Shown here: positions 33,104 through 41,300 of the stretch, piece after piece
How positions within the stretch are numbered: position 1 is the first letter of the stretch
Layout: each line of letters opens with the position of its first letter
From: Kiritimatiellia bacterium
GTDB lineage: Bacteria > Verrucomicrobiota > Kiritimatiellia > SS1-B-03-39 > UBA6053
Assembly (NCBI GenBank): GCA_018401235.1
Contig: JAGYLC010000003.1
Coordinates: 1 to 60,075 of the forward strand
Length of the DNA: 60,075 nt
Direction of reading: 5' to 3'
Position numbers and translations under genes: made by a program
The notes under the pieces: model-generated
The model's database searches: none
What the model was told of the DNA's origin: nothing
Seen by the model: the letters and a program-made list of their open reading frames with translations, nothing else

Positions 33104-33787
33104 TCATTCGGCCAGATGTGTCCAGCGGCCGGGTCCTGAAGACGTCGGAGCATTTGGGATTGCTCCTTTTCCATGCTTCAACAGATGCAGAATCAGCGGA
33201 AGCGACAACAAACAGGCAGCCCCGATGCGCAGGGCCAAGCCGCTTTGCGCACTTAGTCGGGGAAGCGGCCACAGCGGCGGGGACGGAAAAAGCAGGTGTA
33301 ACAGCAGTAGCCCCACCGGAATCAGCAACAATGGCAGCAGCGGTTTCAGATTTCCGCCCCCGGTCCCCGGAGCCAAAAGCCCCCACCACAAAGCTCCCTG
33401 TATTACCCACACGATATACAGGTATCCCAGCGGATAATCGCCCCGCCAATCCGGCATCAAGGAGGACCACAACGCGTGGGTGAAAATCCAGAATGCGGCC
33501 TGACGATGAAACCCGTTCTGTTTGGACATCAATCCGCCCACTACACATGCACCCAGGACTCTCAAGCCGATCTGAGACCACGAAAAACCGCAAAACACAT
33601 CCCCGATCAACATCCCCGGTAACAGTGCCAACATCCAGGTTCGCCCGCCACGCAACGTGATCAAAGGCAACATCAGCCACAGCGGATCCAAGGCCACCGC
33701 GCCCGGAACCGGGCGGAGAGGGGCCAGCAGGATCCGCAGAACCAGATACCCGGCGGCGATAAATAAAGGTGAGTTAAGGAGTTTCAT
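33104..33787 (-). CDS. hypothetical integral membrane protein
   Basis: Multiple hydrophobic segments; overlaps the queA 3' end by a few nt (MKLLNSPLFIAAGYLVLRILLAP). Confidence 0.55.
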   Translation of the reverse strand: MKLLNSPLFIAAGYLVLRILLAPLRPVPGAVALDPLWLMLPLITLRGGRTWMLALLPGMLIGDVFCGFSWSQIGLRVLGACVVGGLMSKQNGFHRQAAFWIFTHALWSSLMPDWRGDYPLGYLYIVWVIQGALWWGLLAPGTGGGNLKPLLPLLLIPVGLLLLHLLFPSPPLWPLPRLSAQSGLALRIGAACLLSLPLILHLLKHGKGAIPNAPTSSGPGRWTHLAE

Positions 33788-34820
33788 GATGCAGGAACAT
33801 ACAATCTCCATAGGAAAAAAAGCGGTAGCGACGCTCAATGGCTTCCTGATAGGCCGCCAGCAGTGCCTCGCGGCCTGCGAAGGCACTCATCATCATCAAT
33901 AAGGTGGATTTGGGCAAATGAAAATTGGTCAAAATCGCATCCACCGCTTTAAACGAGTAGGGTGGGTAGATGTAGAGTCCGCTGCGCCCCCGGGCGGCCA
34001 CGAAGAGACCGTCCGCCCGCACCACAGTTTCCAGGGTGCGCACACTGGTGCTGCCCACCGCCACAATCCGTCCCCCCGCCCGTCGGGTCCGATTCAGAAT
34101 GTCTGCACTCTCTTTGCTCAGCTCGTACCGCTCCTCGTCCATATGGTGGGCGGTGACCTCCTCGACCTTGACCGGACGAAAGGTTCCCGGGCCCACATGC
34201 AGGGTCACTTCCACCACCTCCACCCCGGCGGCGCGGATACGGTCCAGTAATTCCGGGGTAAAATGCAGGCCGGCGGTGGGTGCCGCCACCGCCCCGGGCC
34301 GGGAGGCATACACGGTTTGATAGCGCTCCGGATCTTCTTCACACAAGGACTCCCTCTGAATATACGGCGGCAACGGCGGCTCCCCGATTTGTTCCAATGC
34401 ATCCAGCACCGGTTCCGATCCCAGCGCCCGCACTCGATTCAAACCATCGCTTCGATTTTCCAACACTTCAAGTTGCAGTACATTGGACAGGGTAATGATC
34501 GATCCCTCTTTCGGACGATGACTGCTTTTCATCATCACCAGCCATTCCTCCTCCGTGTTGTCAACCGGCTCGATAAACAGACATTCCACCCGCCCCCCCG
34601 TAGATTTCACGCCATGGGTGCGGGCCGGAATCACCCGGGTATTGTTCAACACCAGCGCATCCCCGGGGCGAAGATAGCCCGGAAAATCCACAATAGATTG
34701 ATGGTGCAGCTGTCCGTCCTCCACCCGAAGTGACAGCATCCGGGCCTCATCCCGCCGCATCGCCGGATGCTGCGCAATCAATTCGGTGGGGAGTTTATAA
34801 TCAAAATCAGCAGTTTTCAT
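33774..34820 (-). CDS. queA: S-adenosylmethionine:tRNA ribosyltransferase-isomerase
   Basis: FDYKLPTELIAQHPAMRRDEARML, PTAGLHFTPELLDRI, VTLHVGPGTFRPVKVEEV, LTNFHLPKSTLLMMMSAFAG. Confidence 0.97.
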   Translation of the reverse strand: MKTADFDYKLPTELIAQHPAMRRDEARMLSLRVEDGQLHHQSIVDFPGYLRPGDALVLNNTRVIPARTHGVKSTGGRVECLFIEPVDNTEEEWLVMMKSSHRPKEGSIITLSNVLQLEVLENRSDGLNRVRALGSEPVLDALEQIGEPPLPPYIQRESLCEEDPERYQTVYASRPGAVAAPTAGLHFTPELLDRIRAAGVEVVEVTLHVGPGTFRPVKVEEVTAHHMDEERYELSKESADILNRTRRAGGRIVAVGSTSVRTLETVVRADGLFVAARGRSGLYIYPPYSFKAVDAILTNFHLPKSTLLMMMSAFAGREALLAAYQEAIERRYRFFSYGDCMFLHHETP

Positions 34821-35142
34821 TTTTGTTGATAATGTCCATATACAAAGAACGGGAGTAAATCAAATCTTACGCCCACATCCCTACGACTCCGGCTGGTCAA
34901 TCTCCTAGCAAAATACAGGACAAAGGAAAGCATTTTAGCCTGGCCGGGAAGCAGGCAAAATTTGGACACTTCACAAAAAACACGGCTGATCGCTACTGGT
35001 ACCAGAATCTATCAATGGGTTATTGCAGAGGGTGCCAAAAATGGGACTACCTCTTTCAGAGGGAGTTCCTCTTTCCCACCGTCTTGTCCCGGCGCGGCTT
35101 GGCGTGCGAAAACGGAAGTTCAAAAAGAAGAGTAAAGAGTAC

Positions 35143-35240
35143 ACCAAACCACGAGCTTGCTCGGGGTTTGGAAGTTGATCATAAACAGACATCGGAATCT
35201 ACGGACCCTTTCTGTCAAAATCCCCTTCACACTGGGTTCT
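35143..35240. repeat. Partial copy of the MITE-like family (right end)
   Basis: GGTTTGGAAGTTGATCATAAACAGACATCGGAATCTACGGACCCTTTCTGTCAAAAT... matches 15690-16018 right arm. Confidence 0.7.
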
Positions 35241-35303
35241 GTGAGTCGTTCCTCAGCCTAGGCTTACCGCGGTGCCCGAGGCTTGGGGAACGAAAACCCC
35301 CGT

Positions 35304-35345
35304 TTGGACTTTAATGTAAACTTTGGTATAATTTTAGGTTTACAT
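35304..35345 (+). promoter_or_regulatory. sigma70 promoter (TTGGAC-N17-TATAAT) overlapped by BirA-type operator
   Basis: ATGTAAACT-N14-GGTTTACAT at 35314-35345 flanking TATAAT (35327-35332); -35 TTGGAC at 35304-35309. Confidence 0.7.
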
Positions 35346-35367
35346 ATAGAGGCGCCCCCGTTATTGC

Positions 35368-37182
35368 ATGGGTCTTATGAACAAATACCCCTTAACTCTC
35401 GTTGTTTCCCTCGCCCTTTGGTTAAATCTGCCTGCGCAGGAGCAGGTGACGGAGGGGGCGCCGATGCGGGTGTCGGAGCGTCCGCTGGCCAGTGTGCAAC
35501 AGGTGGGACAGGATGTGAGCATCGCCACCAGTTTGCAGTCGCTGCCGGGGGTGGTGATTTTGTCGCAGGGTCAAGCGGTGGGGCAAAGTGACATCAGTAT
35601 CCGGGGATCGAGCTTTTCGGGAGCGGGGCTAAGTATCGCGGGGCTTTCGCTGCGCAATGCCCAAACCGAGCATTTTCACACGGAACTCCCCTTTCCCGCC
35701 TGGTGGCTGGCCCAACCGGAGGTGCTGACGGGTGTGTCCCAGGCCGCGCAAACCGAGGGTCATCTGATGGGCACGGTTTCTCTTTCGCCACTGCTCATCC
35801 AAAATCTGAATCGGGTCTCGGGCGGAGTGGATAATAAGAGCGGATATTGGGTAAACGGCGGTTCGCAACAGGTGCGAACGGGCGAAAACGGGGTGCGGAC
35901 GGGGGTGGGAGTCTTCGCGGGTCACAGCGAAATTCCGGGGGTGGATTTTCCGGATAACGATGTGAAGGTGTCCAGGGGCGGGGCGCAGGTTCAACATCTG
36001 TCGGACCGGGGCCAGGGCGATCTTTGGCTGGGTCACCAGGACAAAACCTTCGGAGCTCGCGGTTATTATGGGGTGAGCGACGCATTTAAGGCGGAAGAGC
36101 GCACGCAGGACACCATGCTGCTGGGGAGTTGGCAGGGAAGGGATCCGGGTCGTCCGTATTCCGCGTCCATCCTGCTGCGTCAGTTTGATGACGACTATAA
36201 GTTGTGGCTGCCGAGTGGCTTGTTTCGGAATCAGCATCGTACCCGCACCGCCGCCACCCAGGTGAGCCGCCTTTTCTTGCTTCAGGAAGGTTTTCGGGTT
36301 CAGACCCGACTGGCTGCGGATATCGAGGATATCGATAGTGACAACCTGGGAGATTTCTCCCGTTCCCGTGTTGCAGCCACGGTGATGCCGCAGGTCGATC
36401 TGACCGACTCTCTCACCCTGTCGGTGGGGGTTCGGGGAGAACTTTTGGAGGGGGATTCAAATCAGGTGCTTCCCCTGGCCCGGGTGGATCTGACTTTGCG
36501 GGAGGATTTGGTCTTTCACGCGGAGGCCAGTCAATCGGTGCGGCGCCCGAGCTATACAGAACTGAACTATGAATCTCCCGGGAGTTTGGGAAACAGTGGT
36601 CTCGCTATTCAGGAACAAAGCTCGTTTGAGGGCGGGCTCACCTGGGATGCTTCCACGCAGACCCGTCTGCAGGCGCTGGTGTTTCAACATCGCACCAAGG
36701 ATACGGTGGACTGGATTCGCCCGGACGAGGACGCTCCCCGCTGGTTGGCGGAGAACATCGGGGATGTGGACACGTTGGGAACTGAAGTAATCCTGACCCA
36801 TGCCTTCCACCCCCGTTTTCAGGTGACCACCAGTTACATGTGGATGGACAAGGATGCGGACAATCCTCCCTACGCCAGTCGCTACAGCCTGGATTACGCG
36901 AAACATTTTGTCCGCGCCCAGATCGACTGGACCCTGCAGGACTGGCTGCGGCTGGAGCTGTCCCAGTGGTATCGGGATCAGGCGGACAACCCGCTGCGGA
37001 CGGAGGGAGGCAGTGAGCAGTGGCTCAGCAATGTCGCCGTGCATATTCGGTGTCCGAAATATTCAGCGATTCAATTCAGTCTGATGGCGAGCAATGCGAC
37101 CGACGATGACTATCGGATCTTCCCGGGCCAAAACACCGTCACCCAACGCCGGGTATCGGCGGGGGTGACTGTGGATTGGTAG
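35368..37182 (+). CDS. TonB-dependent outer-membrane receptor (BtuB-like plug/barrel)
   Basis: Signal peptide, plug domain (SLQSLPGVVILSQG...SDISIRGSSFSGAGLSIAGL), beta-barrel, C-terminal VSAGVTVDW. Confidence 0.88.
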   Translation: MGLMNKYPLTLVVSLALWLNLPAQEQVTEGAPMRVSERPLASVQQVGQDVSIATSLQSLPGVVILSQGQAVGQSDISIRGSSFSGAGLSIAGLSLRNAQTEHFHTELPFPAWWLAQPEVLTGVSQAAQTEGHLMGTVSLSPLLIQNLNRVSGGVDNKSGYWVNGGSQQVRTGENGVRTGVGVFAGHSEIPGVDFPDNDVKVSRGGAQVQHLSDRGQGDLWLGHQDKTFGARGYYGVSDAFKAEERTQDTMLLGSWQGRDPGRPYSASILLRQFDDDYKLWLPSGLFRNQHRTRTAATQVSRLFLLQEGFRVQTRLAADIEDIDSDNLGDFSRSRVAATVMPQVDLTDSLTLSVGVRGELLEGDSNQVLPLARVDLTLREDLVFHAEASQSVRRPSYTELNYESPGSLGNSGLAIQEQSSFEGGLTWDASTQTRLQALVFQHRTKDTVDWIRPDEDAPRWLAENIGDVDTLGTEVILTHAFHPRFQVTTSYMWMDKDADNPPYASRYSLDYAKHFVRAQIDWTLQDWLRLELSQWYRDQADNPLRTEGGSEQWLSNVAVHIRCPKYSAIQFSLMASNATDDDYRIFPGQNTVTQRRVSAGVTVDW

Positions 37183-37726
37183 TTACGCACTCCAACAAAT
37201 ACACATCATAGGCCTGTCCGTGGATGCGGAAGGCTCCATTCTCGCGTCCGATAATATGAAATCCACAGCTTTCGTATAGACGGAGCGCGGCGCTGTTGTT
37301 GACTTCCACGTTCATCTGACAGCAGGAGGTGAGGAAGTACTCCTGCAGATACAGGCGTGCCTGCTCCAGCAGGCAGCGTCCCTGTCCCTGTCCGCGGTGG
37401 GTGGGCAGGACGTACATACTGAAAATGAGTCCGCAGGCGGTCGGATGCTGCCGTTGAATACGCAATCCGGCGATGCCGACGAGATTCTGCTCCTGCCAGG
37501 CTCCCAGGATGGCCGCAGTGCCTCTCAGCCTATAGTGAAGGATCTGGCGACGATAATATCCGCTGCCTTTCGCCAACTCGATTCCCGGAGGGGTACCGAA
37601 GTTCCACGGACATTCTTGAATGGCCTGATGCCGGACCCGCATCAGGGCGCTCGCATCCCCGGGCCGCAGTATCCGGTGAGTACAGGCGGTCTGAAGGGTT
37701 AAGGGTTCGTCGCTGATATCGGTCAT
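37139..37726 (-). CDS. GNAT family N-acetyltransferase
   Basis: FSMYVLPTHRGQGQGRCLLEQARLYLQE, NNSAALRLYESCGFHIIGRENGAFRI; 3' end overlaps the TonB receptor convergently. Confidence 0.85.
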   Translation of the reverse strand: MTDISDEPLTLQTACTHRILRPGDASALMRVRHQAIQECPWNFGTPPGIELAKGSGYYRRQILHYRLRGTAAILGAWQEQNLVGIAGLRIQRQHPTACGLIFSMYVLPTHRGQGQGRCLLEQARLYLQEYFLTSCCQMNVEVNNSAALRLYESCGFHIIGRENGAFRIHGQAYDVYLLECVTTNPQSPPPIPGVG

Positions 37727-38306
37727 CGTATCGAATCATAACAACCCGGACTTCATCCGCAATCGAATTGTATAGTGGAAAATGAACCGATCACGGATTT
37801 CATTCGCAACCGAAGAAGGTATATAGACGGTATTCCTCAATGGTTAGGACCACGGATAGCGATGCCAGACCACGGATGAAATGCATTGGAGACCGGAATT
37901 ATTCCAAGCGGCACGGAGGAGACTACAGGATGGGTTCAAAAGATATTTTCTTTCTTCTATCCGTGGTCCGGCAAGGCTATCCGTGGGACACTACTCCAAA
38001 AAACAAACCACTAACCCCATATCGCTTGATTTGTTGCATAAAACTCATCCATTTTTCTAAAGTATCTTTCTCTGGGAAAATCAACAGGCCAAATTTGAAG
38101 CTATTAGGGTACAAATTTGTAGGATTCTGAATGACTCGGGGCGATAGAGGAAAAATTTTACTTGTGTGATTCCGCATAGGCGATTACAAATTGGGGCCCT
38201 TTTGTTCCCAACCTGAAACGAAGGTTGAGACCAGGCACATAGCACCTGTCCTGAACGCATCACGGCCTCACGTGTACTGCAGATTAAAGTTAGAGAGAAA
38301 AAATTT

Positions 38307-41300
38307 ATGTCCAATCAAGATCAATACCGCCCGGCAAATTACCCGAAAACCCAGGGATTGTACAGTCCCGAGCAGGAGCGCGACGCCTGCGGGGTAGGCT
38401 TTATTTGCAATATGAACGGAAAACGTTCGCACAAAATTATTCACCAGGCGCTGGAAATTCTGGTACGACTGACCCATCGCGGCGCAGAGAGTTCGGATAA
38501 CCGGACCGGGGACGGCGCCGGAATTCTAATTCAGATTCCGGATGCGTTTTTCCGCCGGGAATGCGCCGTTTTGGGGATCAACTTGCCGGCGGCGGGTGCC
38601 TACGGCACCGGATTGGTATTTTTACCGAAGGACGAAGCCGAACGCTCCGCGATCAAAGCGCAGTTTGAGAAGGAAATTGTTGAGAACGGTCAGCAGTTTC
38701 TGGGATGGCGCCAGGTGCCGGTCAATTCCAAGGTGTTGGGTGATTTGGCGGCGAAATCCGAGCCGGTTATGGAACAGGTGTTCATTGGCCAGGGAGAGGA
38801 AACCAAGGATCAGCGCGGGTTCGAGCGGGAGATGTACATCATCCGCAAGGGAGTGGAGAAATTCGTAGCCGAGAACGAAACCCTGAAGGACAAGCAGACC
38901 TTTTACGTGCCCAGCCTGTCTTCCCGCACTATGATTTACAAGGGGCTCCTGAAACCGGAGGACTTTGAACCGTACTATCAGGACTTGCTGGACAAGGATG
39001 TCGAAACCTGCCTGGCTCTGGTGCATCAGCGCTATTCCACCAACACCTTCCCGGCCTGGCGCCTGGCCCAGCCTTTCCGCCTGCTTTGTCACAACGGCGA
39101 AATCAACACGGTTCGCGGCAATGCCAACTGGATGAACGCGCGTCAGTCCCAGTTTCAGAACGAGGCCTTCGGCGACCGCATGGATAACTTGCGGCCCATA
39201 TGTGTGCCTGGCAACAGCGACTCCGCCACCTTGGACAACACTCTGGAGTTATTGTACCACACCGGACGCGACCTGCCCAAGGCGATGATGATGATGGTGC
39301 CGGAAGCCTGGCAGAATCACATGACCATGTCGGATGAGAAAAAAGCCTTTTACGAATATCATTCCTGCATGATGGAGCCTTGGGACGGTCCAGCGTTGAT
39401 GCCGTTCACGGATGGTACCTTTGTCGGCGCGATTCTGGACCGCAATGGACTGCGTCCCGCCCGTTATCTGGTCACCACCGACGATCAGGTGGTGATGGCC
39501 TCGGAAACCGGGGTGGTCGATATCGACCCCGCCACCATCGTCAAAAAAGGACGACTGGAGCCCGGCCGCATGTTCCTCATCAATCTGGAGGAAGGCCGGA
39601 TCGTCGAGGATGCGGAGATCAAACAGACCATTGCCAACAGCAAGCCCTACCGAAGCTGGTTGGATCAACACATGATCAGCATCCATGACCTGCCCCCGCA
39701 GATTGATCCCATTCCCCTGCGCGGTCCCAACCTGATCGAGCGGCAAAAGTTGTTCGGCTACAGTCTGGAAGACTTGCGCATTGTCATGAAACCGATGTAC
39801 GAAAAAGGCATCGAAGCCCTGGGTTCCATGGGCGTGGATATTCCCATTTCGGTTCTGAGCGACAAGCCGCAGTTGATGTACAACTATTTCAAGCAATTGT
39901 TTGCGCAGGTTACCAATCCTCCGCTGGACGGGATTCGTGAGGAAATCGTCACCTCCCTGATCACCAACATTGGCCGCGAACGGGATTTGTTTAAGGAAAC
40001 TCCGGAGCACGCGCTGTTGTTAAAGCTGGAACAGCCGATTCTGAACAGCCGCAACCTGGAACGTATTCGCCGTTCCTCCCAACCGGGGGTCAAGGCGCAA
40101 ACCCTCAAAATGCAGTTTGACGCAACCCAGGGCGGTGCGGCTCTGGAAGCGGCCGTGGATGCGCTGTGCCAGGGCGCGGAAACCGCGGTGGACAATGGTA
40201 ACACCATTTTGATTTTGAGTGACCGTCATCTGGAAGACACTTTGATGCCTATTCCGGCTCTTTTGGCGACGGCGGCGGTTCACCATCACCTGACCCGCAA
40301 AGGGAAACGTACTCAATGCGGACTGATCGTTGAAACGGCGGAAGCCCGGGAAGTGCATCATTTCTGCTGCCTCTTCGGCTTCGGTGCCGGAGCGATCAAT
40401 CCCTATCTGGCCTTGGCCACCGTTCGAAATGAAAAGGATCATCTGGATCCCACCAGCCACTCGGCGGACAAAGCGGTGCAGATGTACATCAAGGCATTGA
40501 ACAAAGGGCTGCTGAAGGTAATGTCCAAGATCGGGATCGCCACCCTGCATTCCTATCGGGGCGCACAGGTATTTGAATGCATCGGACTTTCCCAGTCCAT
40601 TGTGGACCGTTACTTTTATGGCACCCCCACCCGCATTGAAGGGGCGGACATGGATGCCTTGGCGCAGGATGTGCTAAAGCGCTACCAGGCCGCCTACCCG
40701 TCCAAGGATATTTCCGAAAATTTGGAACTGGACGTGGGCGGAGTGTACCAGTGGCGTCGTCAAGGGGAGCATCACTTAATTTCCCCCATGTTGGTGGCTC
40801 TGCTACAGAAAGCTTCCAAGGTGCGAAGCAAAGACGATTACAAGGCCTACAGCGAGTTGGTGAACGATCAAAGTCGCAAACTCTGTACGCTACGCGGATT
40901 GATGGACTTCACATTCGATGAGAGCAAATCGATCCCGATTGAGGAAGTGGAGCCCTGGACCGAGATCGTGAAACGCTTCAAAACCGGGGCGATGTCCTAC
41001 GGATCGATCAGTCGGGAGGCGCATGAAACCCTCGCGGTGGCCATGAACCGCATTGGCGGAAAGTCTAATTCCGGTGAAGGCGGCGAAGAGGAACATCGCT
41101 ATGAACTCGATTCCAACGGGGACAACCGCAGTTCCGCGATTAAGCAGGTGGCGTCCGGACGTTTCGGGGTCACCAGTTACTACCTGACCCAGAGTAAAGA
41201 AATTCAAATCAAAATGGCTCAGGGAGCCAAGCCGGGTGAAGGCGGACAACTTCCGGGGATCAAAGTGAACCAGACCATCGCCAAGGCCCGCTTCAGTACG

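Follow-up and report, generated by a model that had tools for sequence, protein, structure and literature searches.

The window analysed here, a stretch of 60,075 nucleotides from a Kiritimatiellia bacterium, contains a gene for a TonB-dependent receptor that is preceded by a promoter and by a palindrome resembling the operator of BirA. The features are listed in Table 1.

Table 1. Features of the receptor locus, in positions of the window
Feature	Position	Strand	Basis
Sigma-70-type promoter TTGGAC-N17-TATAAT	35304..35332	+	Read directly; consensus scan
Predicted BirA-type operator ATGTAAACT-N14-GGTTTACAT, overlapping the -10 box	35314..35345	.	Letters, conservation
TonB-dependent receptor, 604 aa, proposed outer-membrane biotin transporter	35368..37182	+	Pfam plug, model, fold, neighbourhoods in relatives

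The receptor and its upstream region

The receptor has a signal-peptide-like N terminus and a Trp as its last residue; translation may instead start at the ATG at 35377. The Pfam Plug domain (PF07715) was recovered with an E-value of 4.8e-6 and 27.5 bits (cut-off 23.9), and the AlphaFold2 model, built on 56 homologues, has 22 long strands at a mean pLDDT of 89.3. Domain and model together thus provide the N-terminal plug and the 22-strand barrel of TonB-dependent transporters. The nearest solved folds are those of BtuB and other TonB-dependent receptors, siderophore receptors included, at 12-17% identity, and among the PDB fold matches listed all were TonB-dependent receptors. A sequence search of the PDB gave no match, and NCBIfam returned weak generic receptor matches with no equivalog above cut-off. 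The possibility that the protein is BtuB itself was rejected on the basis of TIGR01779, which did not hit the window protein at E<=1e-3 and gave the homologue of relative L067 34 bits against a cut-off of 599.7, and of the lack of a cobalamin riboswitch upstream. In fact, the Rfam scan of 34000-38400 came back empty up to E 1, by which a riboswitch of another kind, or another structured RNA upstream of the receptor, was discarded as well.

The initial annotation had described a promoter and a palindrome around the -10 box, directly before a TonB receptor, and the letters read as claimed. The -35 box occupies 35304-35309 and the -10 box 35327-35332. The predicted arms of the operator lie at 35314-35322 and 35337-35345, and the palindrome stops 22 nt short of the receptor's ATG. 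A consensus promoter scan returned a shifted reading of the promoter that matched 10/12 positions and carried a TG 5' of the -10 box (shuffles average 0.4 hits). TATAAT-like letters were found in the same operator gap in genomes G002, G003 and G004. The BirA consensus used in the initial annotation, TTGTAAACC-N14/15-GGTTTACAA, is printed in PMC545781, there citing Rodionov et al. 2002. Compared to TTGTAAACC-N14-GGTTTACAA the site matches 15 of the 18 positions with the same spacing, again as annotated. It is the sole site with at most 3 mismatches within the window (shuffle mean 0.02). In the 2.49-Mb assembly it alone fits WTGTWAACY-N14-RGTTWACAW without mismatch, and the second-best site has 2 mismatches. 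Of the further near-palindromes in the genome, with 2-3 mismatches, three (L002, L004 and L005) were rechecked with the degenerate operator and dropped, as none of the three reached <=1 mismatch.

Operator conservation and the type of BirA

The regulator that such an operator calls for, a BirA with an HTH domain, is present as the one BirA of the assembly, which is 85% complete (L010 1237-2235, HTH N-terminal). Its HTH_11, BPL_LplA_LipB and BPL_C domains all scored above the Pfam cut-off, and the birA_repr_reg model gave 40 of 70 bits, which is below the curated cut-off. Directly 5' of this birA, and overlapping it, lies a PIN-domain-like toxin ORF (L010 845-1252), in the position that operator and receptor occupy in relatives.

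Within the 58 relatives that were searched, 18 possess a strong homologue of the receptor. In the 11 genomes of the genus/family the site precedes the receptor in all nine that have the gene, own genome included, and is found in neither of the two that lack it; almost no other site passes in these genomes, nearly every one having only the receptor site. In six relatives (L013, L014, L017-L020) birA lies on the other side of the site in divergent orientation, so that one operator can serve both genes. Receptor and birA are no longer direct neighbours in own genome, in G001 and in G002, and still the operator is found with the receptor in all three. The neighbour across the site is queA in own genome and an RsfS-like gene in G001, and in G002 birA and receptor are separated by a transposase-like ORF. 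In L055 a transposase-like ORF (around 4.7-5.9 kb; REP-associated type by eye) is situated between the two genes, divergent from the receptor, the operator having remained with the latter. Adjoining queA in the window, a hydrophobic protein of 260 aa is encoded on the minus strand (33104-33886), for which neither Pfam nor NCBIfam gave a match.

A scan of named genomes recovered 65 receptor loci, nearly all of them under the names Kiritimatiellota, Lentisphaerae, Verrucomicrobia or PVC. When an operator was called at <=1 mismatch, with a spacing of 13-16 nt and within 400 nt upstream, it was found before the receptor in 21/62 loci, never downstream (0/57) or inside the gene (0/66), and never in shuffles at the same stringency. 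The palindrome is therefore conserved before orthologous receptors, as the operator reading predicted. Two deep clades of the receptor tree, both well supported, contain the operator. Five loci (L077, L095, L096, L111 and L112) have birA and the receptor in tandem, with the operator standing before birA. Around two thirds of the 62 loci lack a recognisable operator directly upstream of the receptor, which, in those with a BirA that was checked, fits an HTH-less BirA. Among 18 receptor genomes the operator was present in 12 of the 13 with an HTH-bearing BirA and in none of the five with an HTH-less BirA (Fisher 7e-4, the genomes not being independent), and the lone exception with an HTH-bearing BirA, G028, has a site with 3 mismatches. 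This dependence is as predicted by BirA control. In L022/L062 the receptor comes directly after ExbB- and ExbD-like genes, which suggests an energising unit dedicated to it in that lineage.

Receptor, biotin synthesis and transport

The expectation that the same site would be found near other biotin genes was borne out in the relatives, where it lies between receptor and birA or before a birA-receptor operon. Own genome has no detectable bioB or BioY to bear a second one: no bioB was found above cut-off in the genome, which is 85% complete, a weak match (28 bits against a cut-off of 225) was rejected as BioB, and BioY was not detected.

The neighbourhoods in relatives place the receptor gene in biotin metabolism, with birA near the receptor in 16 loci and a bio operon in 15 genomes. 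On the contig shared by L067 and G172, the receptor closes the operon bioF-bioH-like-bioC-bioD-bioA and overlaps the end of bioA, with bioB divergent. In family f31 the receptor is found 3' of bioA on the same strand in 14 genomes, at a distance of 30-240 nt in ten and of 0.9-3 kb in four, with bioD in line and sometimes bioC, bioH and bioF too. In L070/G110 the receptor and bioB are transcribed divergently. Considering that the bioA of G172 is 81-86% identical to that of f31 while the receptors share only 35-41%, and that the G172 receptor falls in the f18 clade of the tree, the two associations with bio operons probably arose separately. The f31 bio clusters also contain a second, divergent BioA-like aminotransferase, around 26% identical (L137 2899-4095; L141 639-1826).

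Co-occurrence of receptor and bioB was scored in 213 genomes of the class, and a strong receptor (E<=1e-90) was present in 66 of these. Outside family f31, bioB was present in 4/45 receptor genomes versus 112/145 receptor-less ones (Fisher P 8e-17), and with f31 included in 25/66 versus 114/147 (Fisher 6e-8), although these P values overstate independence, the genomes being related. In the window's own family the split between receptor and bioB is perfect. An absolute rule, by which the receptor occurs instead of bioB, was rejected on the basis of family f31 (21 genomes) and four f18 genomes, which have both genes; 33 of the 213 genomes have neither. The fact that f31 combines receptor and bioB indicates that the receptor is more than a substitute for synthesis.

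No inner-membrane partner for the receptor was found, and BioY is ruled out as such by its absence from own genome and from 57 of the 58 relatives searched, which would imply another inner-membrane biotin transporter. An AEC-like permease recurs near the receptor or birA (L066 4442-5413; L067 9215-10186; and 5' of birA in L084) and is a candidate for this role.

Interpretation and known systems

We consider it best explained, with a probability of about 0.86 and judging from sequence, that the receptor is a BirA-repressed, TonB-driven outer-membrane importer of biotin. With biotin plentiful, BirA would make biotinyl-5'-AMP, dimerise on the palindrome over the -10 box and stop transcription; with biotin scarce, repression would be lifted, the promoter would open and the receptor would be made. 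That TonB energises the receptor is expected from the modelled fold. In the window's lineage the receptor would stand in for lost biotin synthesis, and in other lineages its wiring would differ, the gene being paired with birA, divergently or in tandem, or closing a bio operon. Biotin is of a size that porins can pass, and a dedicated importer is therefore not a strict necessity, which counts against the importer reading.

In favour of a ligand other than free biotin, a TonB-driven route suits molecules too large for porins. A BirA-controlled transporter for a derivative or precursor (dethiobiotin, biocytin, biotinyl peptides or a pimelate source) would also account for receptors within bio operons of genomes that keep bioB, and for the bioB that is divergent from the receptor in G110/L070. 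Given that 41/66 receptor genomes lack bioB, and that cells without it cannot use dethiobiotin or the intermediates before it, this is unlikely, and the likeliest ligand is biotin or a biotin conjugate.

Control by BirA, or by a different HTH protein that recognises a similar site, of a receptor with an unrelated ligand (a siderophore or cobalamin, for example) is very improbable. The nearest solved folds and the weak matches of other family members to siderophore and B12 receptor models point in that direction, but fold similarity at 12-17% identity does not predict the ligand, and the recurrent linkage to birA and bio operons, the anticorrelation with bioB and the empty Rfam scan argue against it. 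A palindrome that resembles the operator by chance and has no regulatory role can practically be dismissed: by our own estimate 1-2 sites with 15/18 positions and two spacings are expected per bacterial genome, but this one is kept before orthologous receptors at 45-67% protein identity, is absent from the controls and is tied to an HTH-bearing BirA. The reading as a BirA-controlled biotin importer survived every test run and is supported, and none of the results that the initial annotation had named as refuting it was obtained.

Outer-membrane receptors are known or predicted for the vitamins B12 and thiamin. BtuB, the TonB-dependent cobalamin transporter, shares with the window receptor the plug, the 22-strand barrel and, as proposed here, the role of vitamin receptor, and is its nearest solved fold (TM 0.69-0.77, E 4e-25); it differs in sequence (16% identity), and the window receptor has linkage to biotin genes instead of a BtuB model match or a cobalamin riboswitch. 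The thiamin receptors of the BT2390 type (PMC5317091) were likewise assigned from a regulatory site in a vitamin auxotroph, although for another vitamin and from a TPP riboswitch rather than a proposed protein repressor. The BirA regulon is matched in half-sites, spacing, promoter overlap and a BirA of the HTH type, and the divergent placing of birA and receptor in relatives has its parallel in the bio operons of Desulfovibrio (PMC545781, PMC5343134). The regulons in these papers comprise biotin synthesis and fatty-acid genes, whereas the gene that would be regulated here encodes a TonB-dependent receptor. BioY and YigM, the only biotin transporters given in PMC6593275, handle the same vitamin but are inner-membrane transporters and not an outer-membrane barrel; a biotin auxotroph without known transporter is reported in PMC5317091. 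Neither an outer-membrane biotin transporter nor a BirA-regulated TonB receptor was found in the literature searched, which covered few subscription papers, so that an earlier prediction is possible.

The receptors would make up a new, coherent vitamin-receptor family inside a known protein class. It is likely that this is a biotin-specific family of TonB-dependent transporters, widespread in Kiritimatiellota/Lentisphaerae and without counterpart in the literature searched, that repeatedly replaced biotin synthesis and implies a further inner-membrane biotin transporter. With a defined family, a regulatory readout, gene neighbourhoods and isolate-like relatives (B1221, B12222), outer-membrane biotin uptake becomes directly testable. 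The predicted control would extend the BirA regulon to outer-membrane transport, and the receptor may help to recognise biotin auxotrophs in metagenomes from a phylum that is poorly represented in culture.
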